Source: Kibdelosporangium persicum (GTDB lineage: Bacteria; Actinomycetota; Actinomycetes; Mycobacteriales; Pseudonocardiaceae). Taken from it: a stretch of DNA of 64,000 nt. The position numbers and the translations under genes are program-made. Each line of letters begins with the position of its first letter. Position 1 is the first letter of the stretch. The stretch spans positions 1-64,000 of the forward strand of contig NZ_JAAATY010000012.1 in the NCBI RefSeq assembly GCF_013280595.1, given 5' to 3'. The notes beneath the pieces are model-generated. The model was not told the origin of the DNA, did no database searches, and saw only the letters and a list, made by a program, of their open reading frames with translations. Shown here in pieces: positions 1 to 26,505 of this stretch.

Positions 1-160
1 ATAGCCGGGCCGGATGCGGCCCCTGACGCCACCGCGGGACCGCCCAAAGACAACCAGTATTCGCGGCGATCCCGCGGCGACGCCAGGAACCGCCCCACCG
101 AGCCGATTCCGGCCTCCGGCCGGGGCAGACTCTCATCGACCGGGACATTCGAAACACGAC
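1..160. other. left-edge region, no gene recognised
   Basis: I see no supportable gene here. A short + strand open frame starting near base 14 runs antisense into the cellulase gene and has no recognisable domain or ribosome-binding site. Confidence 0.4.
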
Positions 161-2155
<1,995 letters not shown>

Positions 2156-2173
2156 CTGACCTGGGGTTTGTTT

Positions 2174-2189
2174 CTGGGAGCGCTCCCAG
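2174..2189. promoter_or_regulatory. CebR/CelR-type operator
   Basis: The perfect 16-bp palindrome CTGGGAGCGCTCCCAG contains TGGGAGCGCTCCCA. That 14-mer is the established binding site of the LacI-family cellulose regulators CelR (Thermobifida) and CebR (Streptomyces), which release DNA in cellobiose. It lies about 100 bp upstream of the GH9 start. I saw no second copy in the window and no cebR gene here. Confidence 0.9.
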
Positions 2190-2227
2190 ACTTCACTGTA
2201 GCGAAGAGCCAGTCGATCGGTACTCCG

Positions 2228-2995
2228 TCATCCGGGTGACGGCGCTGTCAGCGTGACCAGCCAGCCGGGGTGGTCGGTGCTGCCCATCATGTCGATCTTC
2301 GTGGTTCGGCCGAACGACAGATCATCGCTGGCGTACACGTGCTGGACGTTGCCGTCGCCCCGGCGGGAGAACCCGCCGGGATCGCAGTCCCGCATGCTCG
2401 GCGAACCGTGGTCCCGCAGATTGAAGTCACCGGCGACGACAGCAGGCCGCGGATATCCTGCCACCCGAGCCATCAAGTCGCGGCACTGTGCGAGTGCGGT
2501 CGGCGCGTTGTCCGCGGACAAGTGCGTGGTACATACGCTCAAATGCGCCGCAGCAAGACACGCCCAAGCGCGTAGCTCACGGTGCCCGTCCGCAGCCGTG
2601 TACTGAGCGGCGTAGATACCGGACTCCTCGGCGAGACCCGCAAAGGCGGTGGCAACCATGACGATGTTGCCGTAGTGCTGGTCGCTGCCGCGGCACAGCA
2701 CGGGCGTGCCGTCGAGGTCGCGTGCCGCGACGAACAGCGCCCGCGCGGGCCCCATAGCCGGCCGCAGCCGGTCGACGTCACCGGAACATGCCTCGTTCAC
2801 CGACAGCACCTGCGGCTTGCTCGACCTGATCACCTCGGCGGCCTTGGCCATGACCGCGTCGCCTCGGTAACAGCCGGCCATCCCGCCGTGGCAGATGTTC
2901 AACTGCAGCACAGTGATCGTGGTGCCGGTGATCTTCGCCGCCGACGGCACGCCGAGGAACGCGAGCGTCACCAGGACGATGATCACGCGGTTCAT
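2228..2995 (-). CDS. exported endonuclease/exonuclease/phosphatase-family protein
   Basis: Predicted 255 aa with an N-terminal hydrophobic signal (VIIVLVTLAFLGVPSAA) followed by an EEP fold. Family landmarks are TVLQLNICHGG near the N-terminus, a glutamate in LSVNEACSG, AVVAGDFNLRD (the GDFN metal/substrate motif) and the terminal SDHPG-like STDHPG. EEP proteins cleave phosphodiesters or phosphomonoesters (DNases, sphingomyelinases, inositol phosphatases); the substrate cannot be told. An in-frame start 33 nt upstream is possible, but the chosen ATG puts the signal peptide at the N-terminus. Confidence 0.8.
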   Translation of the reverse strand: MNRVIIVLVTLAFLGVPSAAKITGTTITVLQLNICHGGMAGCYRGDAVMAKAAEVIRSSKPQVLSVNEACSGDVDRLRPAMGPARALFVAARDLDGTPVLCRGSDQHYGNIVMVATAFAGLAEESGIYAAQYTAADGHRELRAWACLAAAHLSVCTTHLSADNAPTALAQCRDLMARVAGYPRPAVVAGDFNLRDHGSPSMRDCDPGGFSRRGDGNVQHVYASDDLSFGRTTKIDMMGSTDHPGWLVTLTAPSPG

Positions 2996-3075
2996 GCCGA
3001 GACATAAGCAGACTTCCCGGCTTGCCACAACCGCGCGGCTCGGCCGATCAGGCTTCCCTGGCCCGCGCGGTCAGG

Positions 3076-4236
3076 TCACCTGCGTGCCGGCGTCAAAGGC
3101 CCTGTGGCGTAATAGGTCTTGCACACGGGACCGTCATAGTCGGTGGTCACTTCGAGCACGGCTTTCCCGTCCGGGGTGGGCAGCAGGTAAGGGCTGAAGT
3201 TGCGGCATCCCTCGTTGTTGACGCCCTCGACAGGGATCGGCGCGGGGATCTCGTACCACGGCCCGGCGCCGACGTGATCGTTGGCGAGGATGGTCTTGCC
3301 GTTGCCCGGCGAGATGCTGCCGTCGTCCTCCACCAGCATTTCGGTGATCACCAGGACTGTTCCGGCACTGCCGGGTCCCGCGCTCCACGCGACGGTCGGG
3401 GTATGCCTGCCGTACTTGCCGTCCGCGGTACGGATCACGGTGCCGAGGTCGTACGGGTCACCGAAGTCCCATCCGTCGGCGGAACGGCGGAAATACGCAC
3501 TGCAGAGGTGAACCAGGTCGTTGTTGCACACTTCGTAGGTCATGAAGTACGAGCCGTCGGGTAAGCGGATCGCGTTGATCATCCCGGGCCGGACGTACCA
3601 GTCGGTGTTGACCACGGTGTGCCGGTAGTCGGTCCAGGTGATGCCGTCCGCGGATCTGACCTGGACGAGTTTCTGGTCGTGGTTGGCCTTGTCGGTCTCG
3701 TCGGAGTAGAACGCGACCAGTGTGCCGTCGGCCGCGACCGCGAGGCTGGGTTCCCAGGTGTTGTACTGGTTGGGCGAAACCGCGATGTCCGAGACGTGCC
3801 GCCAGTTCCGGCCGACGTCGGAGCTGGCCCATAACCGCTGGCGGGTCTGGCGTTGCCCTTCCGGCGCCTGGTATCCGACCGTCACGGCCCATAACACCGT
3901 TCCCGCGGGCATGGCCCCGATGGGCGAAGGTAACTCGTACAGGAACGAGCAACAGATCCCGGCGCCGTTGGCCGCCGCGGGGTCCTCGATCGCGGCGATC
4001 TGCTGGAAGGTCTCGCCGCCGTCCGTGCTCGCGCTGATCACTCCGGCGCCCTGCGAGCCGAAGTTCGTGGTGATCGCGGCCAGGATTGTCCCGTTCGCCG
4101 GACCACTGTGCTCCAAACGGATCACCCGTGGATAAAAGCTTCCGCCGTCGTACAGCACACGACGTTCCGGCGCCGGCGCGCTCAGCAAAGTCGCGACCAG
4201 CATGACCACCGCACCCGCGGTCAGCACCACTGCCAC
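3076..4236 (-). CDS. exported sialidase-superfamily (BNR-repeat) protein
   Basis: Predicted 386 aa with an N-terminal membrane/signal segment (AVVLTAGAVVMLVATLLSA). The rest has the repeated beta-propeller signature of BNR/Asp-box proteins: SASTDGGETF, ASSDVGRNW, RSADGITW and RRSADGWDFG. Such six-bladed propellers occur in exo-sialidases and other glycan-binding hydrolases. Catalytic sialidase residues (Arg triad, Tyr/Glu) cannot be confidently assigned, so substrate is open. It sits in a run of minus-strand exported enzymes with the phosphatase and cellulase. The start is GTG. Confidence 0.75.
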   Translation of the reverse strand: MAVVLTAGAVVMLVATLLSAPAPERRVLYDGGSFYPRVIRLEHSGPANGTILAAITTNFGSQGAGVISASTDGGETFQQIAAIEDPAAANGAGICCSFLYELPSPIGAMPAGTVLWAVTVGYQAPEGQRQTRQRLWASSDVGRNWRHVSDIAVSPNQYNTWEPSLAVAADGTLVAFYSDETDKANHDQKLVQVRSADGITWTDYRHTVVNTDWYVRPGMINAIRLPDGSYFMTYEVCNNDLVHLCSAYFRRSADGWDFGDPYDLGTVIRTADGKYGRHTPTVAWSAGPGSAGTVLVITEMLVEDDGSISPGNGKTILANDHVGAGPWYEIPAPIPVEGVNNEGCRNFSPYLLPTPDGKAVLEVTTDYDGPVCKTYYATGPLTPARR

Positions 4237-4375
4237 CCCTACTACGTCAGGTGATCATTACTTCTCTCATCGTAACGGCCGCGGTCGGTGATCGGGTGAC
4301 GAACTGGTTGAACCACGCTGACCTGCCGATATAGTGGCGAATTCGCGGACATGCGAGGAGAAGGCCGGCCTGGAC

Positions 4376-5038
4376 ATGGCGCCACACAAAGCGATCAACT
4401 TCTGGACGTCCGTCAATCCGGCCTGGCAGGAGTGTTTTCTCCTTGCCTGGCAGTCCTTCCAGGCAAGGAGCATCCCGGTGGGCGCCGCACTCGCCGACGC
4501 CGATGGAACGATCGTGGCTCGCGGCCGAAACCGCTGGAACGAGAACAGCGGTCCACAGGGCCAACTCGCGGGCAGCAACCTCGCCCACGCCGAGGTCAAC
4601 GCGCTCGCCCGGCTGTCACCGGGCGACTATTCCGATCATGTCCTGTACACCACGCTGGAGCCCTGTTTCCTGTGCACCGCCGCACTTCGGCACAGCCACG
4701 TCGGAACCGTCCGGTTCGCCGCCCCGGATCCGGCCTGGCACGGCATCGACCAGCTCCCGCGGCTCAACCACAACATCGCCCGGCGCTGGCCGTTGCGCGA
4801 AGGTCCGGCCGGCGGACCGCTGCAGACCTTCGCGGCGGTCCTCCACCTCGTCTCAGCAGTGGAACGCGACATACAGTCCACAATAGACAGTCACTGGCCG
4901 GTGATGCCCGGCGCCGTGCGGCTCGCCAGGGAGCTTGCCGGACCGAAAGCCGATGACCTCCGCGGAATGCCTTTGGTCTCGGCGCTTCGCGCGGTGTGGA
5001 CGAGTCTCATCCGGCTGAGCACGCCGGGAAGGGACTAA
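4376..5038 (+). CDS. nucleoside/tRNA-adenosine deaminase-like protein
   Basis: This 220-aa protein belongs to the zinc-dependent cytidine/deoxycytidylate deaminase superfamily. The zinc site is complete: HAE (AHAEVNAL) plus PCFLC (LEPCFLCTAAL). The N-terminus (SFQARSIPVGAALADADG) matches nucleoside deaminases. The C-terminal ~90 residues beyond the catalytic core are not recognised. The ATG was chosen for its upstream GGAGAAGG, although the spacing (15 nt) is long; an in-frame GTG at 4334 is an alternative. Its stop overlaps the stop of the convergent oxidoreductase gene by a few bases (CTAA). Confidence 0.8.
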   Translation: MAPHKAINFWTSVNPAWQECFLLAWQSFQARSIPVGAALADADGTIVARGRNRWNENSGPQGQLAGSNLAHAEVNALARLSPGDYSDHVLYTTLEPCFLCTAALRHSHVGTVRFAAPDPAWHGIDQLPRLNHNIARRWPLREGPAGGPLQTFAAVLHLVSAVERDIQSTIDSHWPVMPGAVRLARELAGPKADDLRGMPLVSALRAVWTSLIRLSTPGRD

Positions 5039-5958
5039 CGCGGGACGGCAATTGTCTTGCCGGGCAACGTGCCAGCGTCGTGCCGGGCGTGCACCTCAGG
5101 CAGGTCGGCCAAAGCGACCCGCTCGGCGACGTGGACATGCAGCGTCCCAGCGTTCACCTGGCTGACGAGCCTGGCGAGCTGCTCGGCGTCACTGCGCACG
5201 AAGACGCTGGTCGAGCGCACCCCACGTGGGTCGGCCTCTGGCCCGGGTGTCGTCGTGGTGACCAGAACGCCTTTCGCACGGGCAAAACCTGCCAAGGTAA
5301 CCATGTCGGCGGGCGAGACCGGCGCGAAGTTCAGCACTGTGTCGAATTCGCCAGTGACGCCGTCGGTGCCACGACCGACCACGTCGGCGCCGTAGCCGCG
5401 CACCCGGTCGGCATTGCGCGGACCTGCTGTAGCCACAACCTTCACGCCTGCCCGCACGGCCAGCTGGACGGCGTAGCCGCCGACCGCGCCACCCGCTCCA
5501 TGCACGAGAATTCGCTGTCCCGCTTGAACATCAGCGTGTTCGAACAGCGCCTGCCACGCGGTCAGGCCACCCGAAGGCAGCGCGGCGGCGTCAGCGAGCG
5601 GAATCGCGGTCGGCGCCGACGCCAAGACGTCGACCGGCGCGATGACGTACTCGGCGGCCGCGCCGTCTGCCGTCATCGGCAAGAAGCCGACGACCTCGTC
5701 ACCGACCCGGAACCGGGTAACGCCCTCGCCCAACGCCTGCACGGTGCCCGCGACGTCGATGCCGGGCGTGTGCGGCAGCCGCACCGGGAAGACCTCCTGC
5801 ACGTAGCCGGCGCGAATGGTGGCGTCGATCGGGTTGAACGACGTGCCCGCCACGCGCAGCAGTACCTCACCGGTGCCCGGAAGCGGCTGGTCGATCTCCT
5901 CGGCACGCAGGACCGCCGCGTCGCCGTACTGGTGGAACCGAATCGCCTTCACAGTCAT
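5035..5958 (-). CDS. zinc-independent MDR quinone oxidoreductase
   Basis: NADPH-dependent medium-chain reductase of 307 aa. The GroES-like N-terminus contains GTSFNPIDATIRAGY and HTPGIDVAG. The Rossmann core has ILVHGAGGAVGGYAVQLA (AxxGxxG-type NADPH site). No structural or catalytic zinc cysteines are present, which places it with quinone/enone reductases rather than alcohol dehydrogenases. The start is set by GAGAGG just before the ATG. Two palindromic operators lie in the first 70 bp upstream, suggesting tight inducible control, probably by a regulator encoded elsewhere. Confidence 0.88.
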   Translation of the reverse strand: MTVKAIRFHQYGDAAVLRAEEIDQPLPGTGEVLLRVAGTSFNPIDATIRAGYVQEVFPVRLPHTPGIDVAGTVQALGEGVTRFRVGDEVVGFLPMTADGAAAEYVIAPVDVLASAPTAIPLADAAALPSGGLTAWQALFEHADVQAGQRILVHGAGGAVGGYAVQLAVRAGVKVVATAGPRNADRVRGYGADVVGRGTDGVTGEFDTVLNFAPVSPADMVTLAGFARAKGVLVTTTTPGPEADPRGVRSTSVFVRSDAEQLARLVSQVNAGTLHVHVAERVALADLPEVHARHDAGTLPGKTIAVPR

Positions 5959-5974
5959 CACCTCTCGGATATTT

Positions 5975-5990
5975 GCTTCGAATTCGAAGC
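5975..5990. promoter_or_regulatory. palindromic operator, site 1 of 2
   Basis: Perfect 16-bp palindrome GCTTCGAATTCGAAGC, 17 bp upstream of the oxidoreductase start codon. Together with the second site 34 bp away it looks like a dimeric repressor (TetR/MarR/HxlR type) binding pair. The cognate regulator is not adjacent. Confidence 0.75.
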
Positions 5991-6008
5991 ACAGCCCGAG
6001 TGTACATC

Positions 6009-6024
6009 GCTTCGAGTTCGAAGC
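6009..6024. promoter_or_regulatory. palindromic operator, site 2 of 2
   Basis: GCTTCGAGTTCGAAGC repeats the neighbouring palindrome with one mismatch. Centre-to-centre distance is 34 bp, just over three helical turns, so two dimers would bind nearly the same face of the DNA. Confidence 0.75.
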
Positions 6025-6268
6025 AAGTGGCTTCCCGATGTGATCCGCTCGACGCCGGGCGACCCCACGCCCAAGTCCGACGCCGGACATCGTGATGTGG
6101 CCACACGCGACGGTGCACACACGCGTACGCGACCACATTCGCGCCGCACCACCGCGATCAGTGATCAGTCAAGCCTCGCGCCACCGGCCGCCCGCTTGCG
6201 ATCCGCGGCTGTCCGTGCTCATGTAGTGCGCGGAGACGCCGCGCCCGACAGTGGATCAGGAGCAGCAA

Positions 6269-7441
6269 GTGGACGTACCAGACGCCATCTGGTGGCTGAC
6301 GATCATCGGGATCATCGGCCTGCTCCTGTTCGACTACTTCGCGCACATCCGCAAGGCACACGTGCCCACCATCCGGGAAGCCGCGTTCTGGTCGTCCGTC
6401 TACGTCGGGATAGCCGTCCTGTTCGGAATCGGTGTGCTGCTGTTCGGCGGCGTGACCATGGGCTCGGAGTACTTCGCCGGCTACGTCACCGAGAAGGCCC
6501 TGTCGGTCGACAACCTGTTCGTCTTCCTGGTGATCATGGCGAGCTTCAAGGTGCCCAGGGCGGACCAGCAGAAGGTGCTGCTGATCGGGATCGTGTTCTC
6601 GCTGATCGCCCGGACCGGTTTCATCGCGCTGGGCGCCGCCCTGATCAACCTGTTCGCGTGGGTGTTCTACCTGTTCGGGATCATCCTGCTGGTCACCGCG
6701 GGAAACCTGATCAAACCGAGTGGCAGCGAGGAACGCACCCCGGACAACTTCATGGTCCGCGTGGCCAGGAAACTGTTCCACACCTCGGATCGCTACGACG
6801 GCGACAAGCTGTTCACCGTCGAGAACGGCAAGCGGGTCATGACGCCGATGCTGCTGGTCATGGTGGCGATCGGCGGAACGGACCTGCTGTTCGCGCTGGA
6901 CTCCATCCCCGCCATCTTCGGCCTGACCCAGAACGTCTACCTGGTCTTCACCGCGACCGCGTTCTCCCTGCTCGGCCTGCGCCAGCTCTACTTCCTCATC
7001 GACGGCCTGCTCGACCGGCTGGTCTACCTGGCCTACGGGCTGGCGACCATCCTGGCGTTCATCGGCGTCAAGCTGATCCTGCACGCCCTGCACGAGAACA
7101 ACGTGCCCTTCATCAACAACGGCCAGCCCGTCAACGTCGCCGAGATCAGCACCGGCTTGTCGTTGGCCGTCATCTTCAGCGTCCTGTTCGTCACCGTCGT
7201 CGCCTCGTTGACCAGCAGGTGGGGCCGGGCCCAGAACGTCATCGCCCAGGCCCGGCGGCACGCGGTCCAACTGTGCGAGATCGAGGACGATCCGGCGCTG
7301 CGCGCGGAGATCTACGCCAAACTGCGTGCCGAGGAGGCCCAGCTCAAGCAGCTGCCGGAGAAGTACCGCGCCCGCATCCGTGAGGAAGAGAAGCTGATGG
7401 AGCTGTTCAGGCGGGCGCACGCCGAACAGGCGCACGCCTGA
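6269..7441 (+). CDS. TerC-family integral membrane protein
   Basis: A 390-aa polytopic protein with about nine hydrophobic segments. It carries the TerC/Alx signatures EKALSVDNLFVFLVIMASF and GGTDLLFALDSIPAIFG, whose acidic residues are thought to coordinate a metal ion in this family (tellurite resistance, Mn2+ efflux). The C-terminal ~60 residues form a charged, probably helical cytoplasmic tail. The GTG at 6269 is preferred because AGGAG sits 6 nt upstream; an earlier in-frame GTG at 6251 lacks this. I found no yybP-ykoY riboswitch upstream. Confidence 0.9.
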   Translation: MDVPDAIWWLTIIGIIGLLLFDYFAHIRKAHVPTIREAAFWSSVYVGIAVLFGIGVLLFGGVTMGSEYFAGYVTEKALSVDNLFVFLVIMASFKVPRADQQKVLLIGIVFSLIARTGFIALGAALINLFAWVFYLFGIILLVTAGNLIKPSGSEERTPDNFMVRVARKLFHTSDRYDGDKLFTVENGKRVMTPMLLVMVAIGGTDLLFALDSIPAIFGLTQNVYLVFTATAFSLLGLRQLYFLIDGLLDRLVYLAYGLATILAFIGVKLILHALHENNVPFINNGQPVNVAEISTGLSLAVIFSVLFVTVVASLTSRWGRAQNVIAQARRHAVQLCEIEDDPALRAEIYAKLRAEEAQLKQLPEKYRARIREEEKLMELFRRAHAEQAHA

Positions 7442-23552: not shown

Positions 23553-25505
23553 TCAGGGGGACGTATCGGACCGGGTACGGTTGCCCGCCCTGAGTTGTTT
23601 CAGGGTGTACCCCCGGCCTGCGGGGTCGATCCGCCTTGTCGCCTGTTTGAACAGATACTCCGCACGCGGGTACGACAGGCGGCCCCGGCCGGTCTCCGGA
23701 CAGAGATCACCGGGCGCGGGCATCCGCGCGGGGACCGGCCGCCGGTCGGCCAGGAACAGCGGGCCCCGTGTCCGCCCGGCTGTCAGCCGCGGCAACAGGC
23801 CGGCTGTCGCAGAACGCCAGCTCACCCACGAACGACCGGTCCTGGCCCTGCGGTCGTCGAAGTCGATGTCCTCGACGTTCACCGACAACACCGTTGTCAC
23901 CGCCGCGCCGGACTCGTGCAGCAACCGCCACAACACCCGTTCCCGGACCGGAACGTCCAGTGCCCAGACAGCTTCCAGCCGCACGGGGTCGAGCGCCGGT
24001 GTCCCACTTGACGACTCGGTGCGCCAGTCCAGGTCCGCGTCGAGACCCGCCAGCTCCGCCCACACCGCGAAGGATCTGATGGCCGACCGATGCCGGTTCC
24101 ACGTCCTGGGGGCCGCGTCCTGCCACGCTGTCGCGAAAACCCGGGCCACGTGCTCGGACTTCAGCGAGCGCAACGGCAACTGCTCCCCCAACGCCCGGCT
24201 CAGCCGCCGCAGTGTCTGGCCGTAGGAATGGACCGTGGCCGCGTTCAGATCAGGACGGGCGAGGAAATCACGGGTGGCGTCCCCCAGGGTGGGGCCGGTC
24301 GACGCCGGAACAATCGACGCCGCCCGCCGCGCCAGGAAGGCCCGCTCGGCGGCGTTCTTCGTCAGCGCGGCGGCCCGTTGGTACTCCAGCCGCGCTTCCT
24401 CGTGCCGTCCGACCTGCTCCAGCAGGTCACCCCGGACGCTGGGCAGCAGGTGGTAGTCCCGCAGAGCCGGATCGTCCACCAGGCGGTCGGCCAGCGCCAG
24501 TCCGGCTTCCGGGCCGTACGCCCTGCCCATCGCCACCGCCCGGTTGAGCTGGACGACCGGAGTGGGCAGGAGCCGGACCAACGCCGTGTACAGGTTGGAG
24601 ATCTGGATCCAGTCGGTGTCCTGCGCGGTTCGGGCCTGTGCGTGGCATACGGCGATCGCGGCCTGCAGGACGTACGGGCCGGGTGTGCCGCCGATGTCAC
24701 GGGCCCGCAGCATCGCGGTGAAGCCCCGGCGGATCAGCACCGGGTCCCAGCGGCCACGGTCCTGCTCGTGCAGCTGGATCGGCTCGCCCGACGGCCCGGT
24801 CCGGGCGGCCTGCCGGGACGCCTGGATCTCCATCAACGCGACCAGGCCGTGCACCTCGGCCTCCTGAGGTGCGAGCGTGGCCAGCATCCGGCCGAGCCGT
24901 AACGCTTCCAGGCACAGGCCGGGCCGCATCAGGTCATCGCCGGACGTGGCGGAATAGCCTTCGTTGAAGATCAGGTAGATGACTTCGAGGATCGCGGGGA
25001 TGTCGGCGGTCCGCGACCGCTCGTGTTCGGCCAGCGTGCGTTTCGCCGCGGCGATCCGCTGGGTGATGTTCAGTTCGGTGGTCAGGAACGCCCTGGCGAT
25101 CTCCGCCGCGCTCAGGCCGCCCAGCAGCCGCAGGGTGAGCGCGGCACGGTCCTTCGGCGCGAGGACCGGGCTGCAGGTGATGAACATCAGCCGCAGGACG
25201 TCATCGTCGCCACTGTCGGCGCTGTCGTCGTCCTGCTGGTCCTGGACGAGTTGCGCCTGCTTGCTCTCCGCCAGCCTGGCGCGCCGGATGTGGTCGACGG
25301 CCCGGCGTTTGGCGATGGCCATGAGCCAGGCGCCCGGGTTGTCCGGGACGCCCGACTCGGGCCACTGTTCCAGCGCGGCGACGAGCGCGTCCTGGGCCAG
25401 TTCCTCGGCCAGTCCGACGTCGTGCACCATCCGGGTCAGCCCGCCGATGATCTTCGCGGCCTCGAGTTTCCAGACCGCGTCGATCGCTCGATGGGCGTCG
25501 GTCAC
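23553..25505 (-). CDS. ECF42 sigma factor fused to a degenerate tyrosine-recombinase domain
   Basis: 650 aa, far longer than the ~400-420 aa of ordinary ECF42 factors. Residues 1-160 are sigma regions 2 and 4 (GLAEELAQDALVAALEQWP; LGGLSAAEIARAFLTTE). Residues 165-398 are the DUF6596/TPR-like extension with the family hallmark PTPVVQLNRAVAM. Residues ~406-645 are a tyrosine-recombinase fold: SAM-like core-binding helices (ATVHSYGQTLRRLSRAL) and a catalytic-like domain (LSVNVEDIDFD, LSYPRAEYLFKQAT). The active site is dead: box I Arg is absent, the HxxR motif reads KQLR, and the chain ends before the Tyr. The GTG start overlaps the YCII stop (GTGA). Confidence 0.87.
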   Translation of the reverse strand: MTDAHRAIDAVWKLEAAKIIGGLTRMVHDVGLAEELAQDALVAALEQWPESGVPDNPGAWLMAIAKRRAVDHIRRARLAESKQAQLVQDQQDDDSADSGDDDVLRLMFITCSPVLAPKDRAALTLRLLGGLSAAEIARAFLTTELNITQRIAAAKRTLAEHERSRTADIPAILEVIYLIFNEGYSATSGDDLMRPGLCLEALRLGRMLATLAPQEAEVHGLVALMEIQASRQAARTGPSGEPIQLHEQDRGRWDPVLIRRGFTAMLRARDIGGTPGPYVLQAAIAVCHAQARTAQDTDWIQISNLYTALVRLLPTPVVQLNRAVAMGRAYGPEAGLALADRLVDDPALRDYHLLPSVRGDLLEQVGRHEEARLEYQRAAALTKNAAERAFLARRAASIVPASTGPTLGDATRDFLARPDLNAATVHSYGQTLRRLSRALGEQLPLRSLKSEHVARVFATAWQDAAPRTWNRHRSAIRSFAVWAELAGLDADLDWRTESSSGTPALDPVRLEAVWALDVPVRERVLWRLLHESGAAVTTVLSVNVEDIDFDDRRARTGRSWVSWRSATAGLLPRLTAGRTRGPLFLADRRPVPARMPAPGDLCPETGRGRLSYPRAEYLFKQATRRIDPAGRGYTLKQLRAGNRTRSDTSP

Positions 25506-25828
25506 CCGAAGACCTGGTGCACCCGGCTGACGCCGCCGCCGGTGATGGCGAAGAACCGGCGGGCGATCTCCTCCAACTCGTCCTTGGAGCGCACGTCGAC
25601 CAACGCGAACCCGCCGACCGTCTCCTTGGCCTCGGCGTACGGGCCGTCGGTCACGGTGAGCTCGCCGTCCTTCACCGTCATCAGCATGCCGTCGGGGTCG
25701 AGGCCGCCGGTGGCGACGAGGATTCCGGCCGCGGACAGTTCCTCGACGAACTTGCCCATCTCGACGAACAGCTTCTCGTCCGGCGCGGCTTCGTTCTCGT
25801 CCCGCATGGTCATCATCATGTAACGCAT
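25502..25828 (-). CDS. YCII/DGPF-family protein, ECF42 partner
   Basis: 108 aa with the diagnostic TDGPYAEAKETVGGF segment of DGPF proteins. These are encoded next to ECF42 sigma factors across bacteria. The fold is a dimeric ferredoxin-like YCII domain; its biochemical role is uncertain. GAAAGG lies 8 nt before the ATG. Translationally coupled to the sigma gene by the 4-nt GTGA overlap, exactly the conserved ECF42 arrangement. Confidence 0.92.
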   Translation of the reverse strand: MRYMMMTMRDENEAAPDEKLFVEMGKFVEELSAAGILVATGGLDPDGMLMTVKDGELTVTDGPYAEAKETVGGFALVDVRSKDELEEIARRFFAITGGGVSRVHQVFG

Positions 25829-25880
25829 CGTTTCGGGCCTTTCTGAGTGAGGTTTCGCCCTCACGTCGAACCGCGCATGC

Positions 25881-25906
25881 GACAGGGAATGTACCCGTTC
25901 CCTGTC
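25881..25906. promoter_or_regulatory. inverted repeat in divergent promoter region
   Basis: GACAGGGAA and TTCCCTGTC form perfect 9-bp arms separated by 8 nt. It sits between the YCII gene (minus) and the DUF998 gene (plus), so it may be an operator for one or both. No regulator is assigned. Confidence 0.5.
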
Positions 25907-25959
25907 ACATCGTCGATCCGACGTCGAGGCAGGCACCACCGATCGAAAGGACCGGAAAG

Positions 25960-26505
25960 ATGACCACTCGTACGCTTCTCACCTGCGGGATCGTCGCCGC
26001 GCCGCTGTGGACCGTCGTCTCGCTCGCGCAGGCCGCCGTCCGCCCCGGTTACTCGCTGGCCCGTGAACCGCTCAGCATGCTGGCCGTCGGCCCGGCGGGC
26101 TGGATCCAGGTCGTGAACTTCGTCGTCGCGGGCGTGCTGTTCGTGCTCGGCGCGATCGGCCTGCGGCGGGTGCTCGGCCGCACCTGGGCGCCGCGGCTGG
26201 TGCTGATCAACGGCGTCGGCATGGTCGCGGCAGGGATCTTCACCATGGACAGTCAGCCGTACGCCCACATGGCGGCGGGCACGATCTCCTTCGCCTGCCT
26301 GATCGCGGCCTGCTACGTGCTCGGCAAGCACTTCGGCTGGGTCTCGTGGGCGGCGGGCACGGCACTGCTCGCCGGCGACCTCTGGGCGATGAGCGGCGGT
26401 CCAGTCGGCTCTCTGACGCTGGCCGCCGGAGCGATCGCGGCTATGTTGTGGATCTCCACGGTGGCCGCCAGGTACCGTCAAGATCTCTCCGTGGTGGCGG
26501 TCTGA
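25960..26505 (+). CDS. DUF998-type membrane protein
   Basis: 181 aa, five or six transmembrane helices. The DUF998 pattern is clear: GIVAAPLWTVVSLAQAAVRPGYSLAREPLSMLAVGP and QVVNFVVAGVLFVLGAIGLRR. Function is unknown. Divergent from the ECF42 pair, a neighbourhood where an ECF42 target gene could lie. Confidence 0.82.
   Translation: MTTRTLLTCGIVAAPLWTVVSLAQAAVRPGYSLAREPLSMLAVGPAGWIQVVNFVVAGVLFVLGAIGLRRVLGRTWAPRLVLINGVGMVAAGIFTMDSQPYAHMAAGTISFACLIAACYVLGKHFGWVSWAAGTALLAGDLWAMSGGPVGSLTLAAGAIAAMLWISTVAARYRQDLSVVAV

Follow-up and report, generated by a model that had tools for sequence, protein, structure and literature searches.

A captured, catalytically dead tyrosine recombinase domain as the probable partial reader of promoters for an ECF42-type sigma factor of Kibdelosporangium persicum

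Background

How does a sigma factor recognise its promoter when its chain runs on, in the same frame, into the remains of a tyrosine recombinase? The question is raised by a gene in the first 64,000 nucleotides of contig NZ_JAAATY010000012.1 of K. persicum (assembly GCF_013280595.1; this whole stretch is hereafter the window), where an open reading frame (ORF) on the reverse strand, 23553-25505, encodes a 650-residue protein of this kind. Its first part belongs to the ECF42 family, of which linkage to a YCII/DGPF partner gene, an autoregulated promoter with a TGTCGA -35 and a CGA(C/T) -10, and a TPR extension required for activity are features. From comparison of the protein, its relatives and their promoters we consider it likely that promoter recognition has been partly handed from sigma region 4 (sigma4) to the captured dead recombinase, a DNA-binding module that would read the sequence TTCCCTGTCACAT. 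For the sigma family as a whole we lean towards a wider proposal, in which recognition moved to the captured recombinase domain, the old recombination half-site was installed in the promoters and the steps are kept in living clades.

Results

The first-pass annotation, made from the letters of the window, had described a sigma factor of ECF42 type in residues 1-398, coupled to a DGPF/YCII gene, and a C-terminal recombinase fold deprived of its catalytic residues, and these claims held when examined with domain searches and alignments. The ORF is single and uninterrupted with a GTG start. Its sigma half (residues 1-398, 24312..25505) gave Pfam matches above the gathering cut-offs to Sigma70_r2 (residues 22-77, E 1.9e-10), Sigma70_r4_2 (residues 109-158, E 4.9e-7) and DUF6596 (residues 169-268, E 9.9e-34), together with TPR matches below the cut-off, which is the ECF42 arrangement of sigma2 and sigma4 without sigma3 and then a DUF6596/TPR extension. 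The YCII/DGPF gene (25502..25828, reverse strand) overlaps the sigma start by 4 nt, and a YCII match was found at 71 of the 72 fused loci, L031 lacking one. Judged by domains and linkage, the protein is an ECF42 sigma factor by descent, with an altered promoter type. The remaining residues 399-650 (23556..24311, reverse strand) comprise a core-binding domain and a truncated catalytic domain, as assigned by Pfam, alignment and profile. The Phage_int_SAM_1 core-binding segment covers residues 422-484 (24054..24242, reverse strand) at E 3.2e-7, above the gathering cut-off, and at E 1e-7 when the C-terminal part alone was searched, while Pfam, even with the limit set at E 1, listed no match of the window protein to the catalytic domain PF00589. 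A profile of 80 sequences (the window domain and 79 C-terminal relatives) matches XerD (1a0p) at E 8e-6; among the members of this alignment, 79/80 match Phage_int_SAM_1 and 9/80 match PF00589. The full-length fusion L071 carries PF00589 at 48.2 bits (cut-off 27.1) in the same chain as sigma r2/r4 and DUF6596, its Phage_int_SAM_1 match being sub-threshold (21.1 bits against a cut-off of 22.3). Most of the window domain can be aligned to intact standalone recombinases, for instance to L099 across residues 16-241 of 252.

Catalytic residues were counted in 77 fused chains, window included, and in 21 standalone relatives. In the window domain the Box I Arg is replaced by Ala, the HxxR box reads KQLR (residues 636-639, 23589..23600, reverse strand) and the chain ends 11 residues later, before the box III His and the Tyr; by these residues it is not a tyrosine recombinase in function. 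The standalone relatives have Arg I, the HxxR Arg, His III and Tyr intact in 21/21 and the HxxR His in 20/21. Among the fused chains Arg I is lost in 74/77 and Tyr in 76/77, with Phe in its place in four (L125-L127 and L131), and 72/77 lack everything from His III onward and stop near the same point as the window protein. We also considered whether the catalytic end might be encoded just downstream, which for the window was rejected, by eye only, because its chain stops 24 nt before the next gene and 72 of the 77 stop alike. One fused chain, L071, retains R..HxxR..H..Y, the Lys excepted. Together with L125-L127 and L131 it represents sigma factors that carry a nearly full-length recombinase and have the appearance of evolutionary intermediates.

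Relatives were collected by scanning bacterial genomes with the window domain, the best 80 of 117 being fetched, and the fusion to a sigma factor is present in 72 of these 80. In all seven other genomes of the genus (7/7) the domain was found, preceded in the same open frame by 401-450 residues. That two genes have been joined by a sequencing frameshift is thus excluded, since the frame is open in the other Kibdelosporangium genomes and most fetched relatives are fused. Fusions occur in many actinobacterial genera, among others Streptosporangium, Nonomuraea, Streptomyces, Amycolatopsis, Actinomycetospora and Catellatospora, and among 296 sampled genomes of the class no fewer than 9 have a sigma match past residue 620 and at least 4 more (G021, G081, G130 and G283) hold full-length-type fusions. 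In a tree of the C-terminal domain the fused chains form one side of a branch (99/89, with bootstraps that had not settled), within which subclade A (88/96) contains all full-length fusions and subclade B (100/98) all truncated ones, the window protein included; a tree of the sigma half gives the same grouping. Twenty close pairs, chosen by hand and some of them sharing members, were used to estimate the ratio of nonsynonymous to synonymous substitution rates (dN/dS), which is 0.11-0.46 for the recombinase half in 20/20 pairs and 0.09-0.38 for the sigma half, the recombinase half having the higher value in 18/20. Across the 80 domain sequences, intact ones included, 27 columns are invariant. 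Judged by these ratios and columns, the recombinase-derived domain is conserved and under purifying selection, and the possibility raised in the first-pass annotation that the fusion is unique and under relaxed selection did not hold, the domain being fused in 72/80 relatives and dN/dS staying below 0.5 in every pair.

The promoters of the fused loci carry an element that follows the fusion. The half-site TTCCCTGTCACAT (at least 11/14) lies within 230 bp upstream of YCII at 63/63 loci of clade B and 14/14 of clade A, and it was found at 0/20 of the nearest non-fused ECF42 loci, anywhere in 2.7-3.5 kb; 13 of these 20 have the promoter TGTCGA-N-TTCGAC. Clade A combines both elements: forward half-sites are present at 14/14 loci, two in tandem at 13/14 and none reversed, and they stand upstream of a canonical promoter in which GTCGA-N-CGAY is kept in 13/14. 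The tandem copies are spaced by 17-18 or 26-27 nt, and the distance from half-site to GTCGA is 43-45 or 54-56 nt, that is, two registers about one helical turn apart. Between the half-sites and the canonical -35 of clade A loci such as L150 and L080, a CCAGGTCA/CCTGGTCA-like element recurs. In clade B the half-site is forward at 57 and reversed at 56 of the 63 loci, with a single half-site at threshold in 13/63 (7 proximal only, 6 distal only), and GTCGA-N-CGAY is found at 3/63, by eye never at the promoter's own CGAC. The forward half-site of clade B lies 8 or 9 nt before CGAY in 53/57.

The window promoter belongs to this second type, with the CGACG of the -10 present and GTCGA-N-CGAY absent. 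Upstream of YCII lies a palindrome, ACGTCGAACCGCGCATGCGACAGGGAA-N8-TTCCCTGTCACATCGTCGATCCGACGT (25863-25924), made of two copies of TTCCCTGTCRCAT with CGAC 8 nt after each. Its proximal half-site TTCCCTGTCGCAT (25877..25889, reverse strand), of recombinase type and assigned to the YCII-sigma operon, is separated by 8 nt from the CGAC core of an ECF42-type -10, TTCGACG (25865..25868, reverse strand). The distal half-site TTCCCTGTCACAT (25898..25910, forward strand), which probably serves the divergent gene, is followed by the CGAC core of a divergent -10 (25919..25922, forward strand). That gene (25960..26505, forward strand) matches DUF998 and is the likely second target. Two exact matches to the TTCCCTGTCRCAT-type pattern occur in the window, and shuffles give 0.04 even with two mismatches. 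The palindrome is conserved in most relatives. Over the clade B loci the reversed half-site is present at 53/54 with a divergent gene, either DUF998 or one that we take to be DUF1801-like, versus 3/9 without (Fisher 8e-6); since it tracks the divergent gene, two promoters placed back to back are the best reading of the palindrome.

All Kibdelosporangium genomes (8/8) have the pattern no further than about 2.2 kb from the fused domain; its only other occurrence in them is at a paralogous operon of K. banguiense, and a reversed control of the pattern had no match in the same eight genomes. The K. banguiense locus (L115, G002:C1:10705874) has a second palindrome with YCII, DUF998 and a sigma fragment only (residues 3-77), and by this gene content is a paralogous operon with a truncated sigma gene. 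Beyond the fused loci and this operon, allowing two mismatches gave 3 hits in the 8 genomes versus 2 for the reversed control, and no wider regulon was seen in them. Among the 296 genomes of the class sample the exact pattern is present in 8, namely in 7/9 with a sigma match past residue 620, always at the locus, and in 1/287 others. The two fused genomes without it are G166, with one-mismatch copies in both halves, and G148 (clade A), with a single direct copy. The other genome, G229, which lacks the fusion, has a lone exact half-site with CGAC (L112, G229:C15:20382) where no ECF or YCII match was found, and this occurrence was treated as chance.

The sigma4 region of clade B changed together with the promoter. 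Sigma halves were compared over 398 aligned positions in 63 clade B, 14 clade A and 26 non-fused proteins, and the three positions with the largest gain of variability in clade B are 153, 149 and 146. Position 153 is Arg in 40/40 of clade A and the non-fused proteins versus 2/63 of clade B, which has 12 different residues there, and position 149 is Gln in 40/40 versus 28/63. All of them lie in the recognition-helix region (residues 144-158, 25032..25076, reverse strand), placed by a SigL alignment and the contact residues given in part of PMC6713349. By the same alignment and the order of contact residues, 153, 149 and 146 correspond to R176, S172 and T169 of sigmaE, 148 to R171 and 150 to R173. 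The consulted portions of PMC6713349 and PMC3397946 give R176, S172 and T169 as -35 DNA contacts of sigmaE, R176, S172 and R171 as the base-specific ones and R173 as a backbone contact. Thus the base-reading positions 146, 148, 149 and 153 are variable in the clade of the window protein and the backbone-contact R150 is kept; it is 95% Arg in clade B, where K155 is likewise conserved. On these alignments, the loss of the canonical -35 and the release of its reader coincide on the same branch.

The letters of the half-site also stand beside intact recombinases. Just upstream of the recombinase's own ORF a half-site (at least 10/14) was found in 9/21 standalones (L086, L091, L092, L097, L099, L100, L120, L121 and L122, the domains of L091 and L122 being identical), mostly as an inverted pair with a third direct copy; L086 has the exact TTCCCTGTCGCAT twice. 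Inverted 13-mers with at most 2 mismatches and a 7-bp spacer are present in 5 of these 9. In five loci (L086, L092, L097, L099 and L100) the same letters occur with no sigma or YCII match in the locus. The 9 most distant standalones lack these half-site letters; a similar layout of a pair plus a third copy, in other letters, was seen at L133/L134, L135, L140 and L143, which would fit recombinases that each have a site of their own, and the inverted-pair scan of upstream regions gave nothing convincing for the remaining distant ones. A plasmid homologue of L099 (H1, 78% identical) has the same layout. Searches with the L099 protein gave matches in 136 actinobacterial plasmid records, of which 133 fall below 60% identity, and none in the phage collection, and a phage origin was set aside on these results. 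On a small plasmid, pFAJ2600, a standalone member of the family (L175:1907-2188) occurs together with a gene annotated as a sigma-factor-like helix-turn-helix protein.

Discussion

The first-pass annotation had suggested that the dead recombinase part may act as a DNA-binding module that targets the sigma factor, and this idea gains support from the conservation of the domain, the purifying selection on it and the presence of the half-site in the fused promoters, compared with 0/20 non-fused loci. We propose a path in three steps, beginning with a non-fused ECF42 factor on a canonical promoter. Fusion with a full-length or nearly full-length recombinase would have followed, with half-sites upstream of the canonical promoter, and finally the module would have been truncated, the canonical -35 lost and sigma4 blunted. 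In the present-day protein the module, composed of the core-binding domain and the first catalytic half, would bind the 13-bp half-site, which in clade B begins within the former place of TGTCGA and ends 8-9 nt before the ordinary ECF42 -10 (CGACG), and sigma2 would read this -10. With its base-reading residues gone and the backbone-contact Arg retained, sigma4 probably docks unspecifically, and the specificity would come from the module. Half-sites facing apart would form a divergent promoter pair, with the YCII-sigma-module operon on one side, which would be positively autoregulated, and usually DUF998 on the other. So long an element would leave the sigma factor with essentially a single locus in each genome, and the input signal presumably enters through the TPR-like extension.

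It is possible, if rather doubtful, that the module is no more than an accessory tether of activator type and that an altered -35, within or next to the half-site, continues to be read by sigma4. In clade A the canonical -35 is retained and the half-sites lie further upstream, so tethering may be ancestral, and both the conserved R150 and K155 of clade B and the merely partial overlap of the half-site with the former -35 are in keeping with it. What argues the other way is that positions 146, 149 and 153 of clade B are variable and have not been fixed to new residues, even though the letters of the half-site hardly vary. A separate transcription factor, or an intact recombinase acting in trans, is an unlikely reader of the half-site, with another role such as dimerisation left to the fused domain. 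Ordinary dimeric repressors do typically have palindromic sites; against this stand the presence of the site, which tracks the fusion, the change of sigma4 with the promoter type and the five intact recombinases that have the same letters beside them with no sigma or YCII match. Given that intact recombinases are marked by these letters too, a generic repressor site was rejected as the principal explanation of the palindrome, and the sole other match to the domain in the window genome, a 316-residue recombinase-like protein (L010), has an E of only 0.01.

We regard it as very improbable that the palindrome continues to serve for recombination, with the promoter being inverted or excised there by some other recombinase. 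Its inverted layout with 8 nt between the arms does resemble recombinase core sites, but the domain search found no intact close recombinase in the window genome, each genus genome has one site region, apart from the K. banguiense operon, and the 13 clade B loci with a single half-site do not fit. Hardly credible is a neutral fossil, in which a recombinase gene, joined to the sigma gene by accident, is now decaying; the first-pass annotation had offered a chance fossil as its alternative, and we reject it. The lost catalytic residues, the truncated chain and the higher dN/dS of the recombinase half would suit such decay; the fusions nevertheless make up one clade across many actinobacterial genera, with invariant columns, dN/dS below 0.5 in every pair and half-sites conserved at the promoters.

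Several observations weigh against the transfer of recognition to the module that we favour. The loss of R153 and that of the canonical -35 amount to one clade-level event (n=1), with diversification afterwards. In the sequences of the non-fused loci, canonical TGTCGA stands 18-23 nt ahead of CGAC, and the half-site therefore overlaps the old -35 by only 4-5 nt, the rest being in the -35/-10 spacer, where a recombinase-like clamp might clash with RNA polymerase. The distal half-site alone reaches 11/14 in 6/63 clade B loci. The variant pattern TGTCG-N-CGAYG separates the clades less well (8/14 of A against 5/63 of B, the five not inspected), and among 7 distant non-fused ECF42 loci of the window genome (L002-L008) the canonical pattern was seen at only two, in the case of L003 within a longer region preceding the sigma gene. 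The association of the palindrome with the divergent gene is not significant after tree correction (about 3 concordant and 0 discordant pairs). Because similarity to the window domain decided which loci were picked, the set is weighted towards near relatives. The bootstraps of the trees are unsettled, the branch of clade A (88/96) is unstarred in the tree of the C-terminal domain, and the sigma-half tree carries a long-branch warning.

Further points of this kind concern the standalone sites. The spacer between paired 13-mers is 8 bp in 38/50 fused loci versus 7 bp in the clearest standalone sites, and inverted 13-mers also appear in 2.5-11.5% of shuffled upstream regions. L091 and L120-L122 have only irregular pairs that fail the inverted 13-mer scan, and no recognisable upstream half-site was seen at L096 or at L123, which groups with L086 nearest the fusions. 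At L098 about 5.9 kb separate the site triplet from the recombinase ORF. In the same locus (1-6918) the start of an L100-like recombinase gene stands beside the triplet, and the displacement is probably due to an insertion.

If the transfer of recognition is true, it would show how a sigma factor can gain very narrow promoter specificity by swallowing the DNA-binding domain of a mobile element together with its site, with the intermediates preserved. It would also be a concrete and testable instance in which a protein and its promoter have co-evolved, and synthetic biology could take it as a natural template when building orthogonal sigma factors. A literature search over titles and the beginnings of abstracts among the entries listed, with the main ECF42 and classification papers lying outside it, found no fusion of a sigma factor with a recombinase; priority is unproven. 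Two reviews of ECF sigma factors, one of them PMC8999054, mention the TPR extensions of ECF42, and in the portions of their text available the words 'integrase' and 'recombinase' do not occur.

Among known systems, the ECF42 factors, such as Sven_0747 of Streptomyces venezuelae and others described in the available part of PMC8999054, share with the window protein sigma2-sigma4, a TPR-type C-terminal extension and the ECF42-type -10. They differ in that the window protein has an extra recombinase-derived domain and that its clade lacks the -35, has a 13-bp half-site starting there and has variable base-readers in sigma4. The standalone actinobacterial tyrosine recombinases (L086, L091, L092, L096-L100, H1 and others) are 43-52% identical to the window domain (8 standalones), and the nearer ones have the same half-site beside them; unlike it they are free-standing and catalytically intact by the residues counted above, and they are known here from their sequences alone. 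SigI of clostridia has an unusual C-terminal domain that reads the -35. It is thus alike in that the -35 is read by something other than an ordinary sigma4, and different in that this domain is unrelated and is not known to have a recombinase origin. Closest in the use of the fold is MrpR, the master repressor of SPbeta, which according to the accessible part of PMC10516654 is a catalytically dead tyrosine-recombinase fold acting as a sequence-specific transcription regulator. It differs in being a phage repressor that stands alone, whereas the window domain is truncated, belongs to a sigma factor chain and would presumably activate; a conserved element that tracks the fusion was found in the promoters here, and its binding by the domain is what these sequences lead us to infer. 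The same part of PMC10516654 suggests that dead tyrosine recombinases have been recruited as transcription regulators more widely than thought, and the family described here, if our proposal is true, would add a sigma-factor case to that suggestion.

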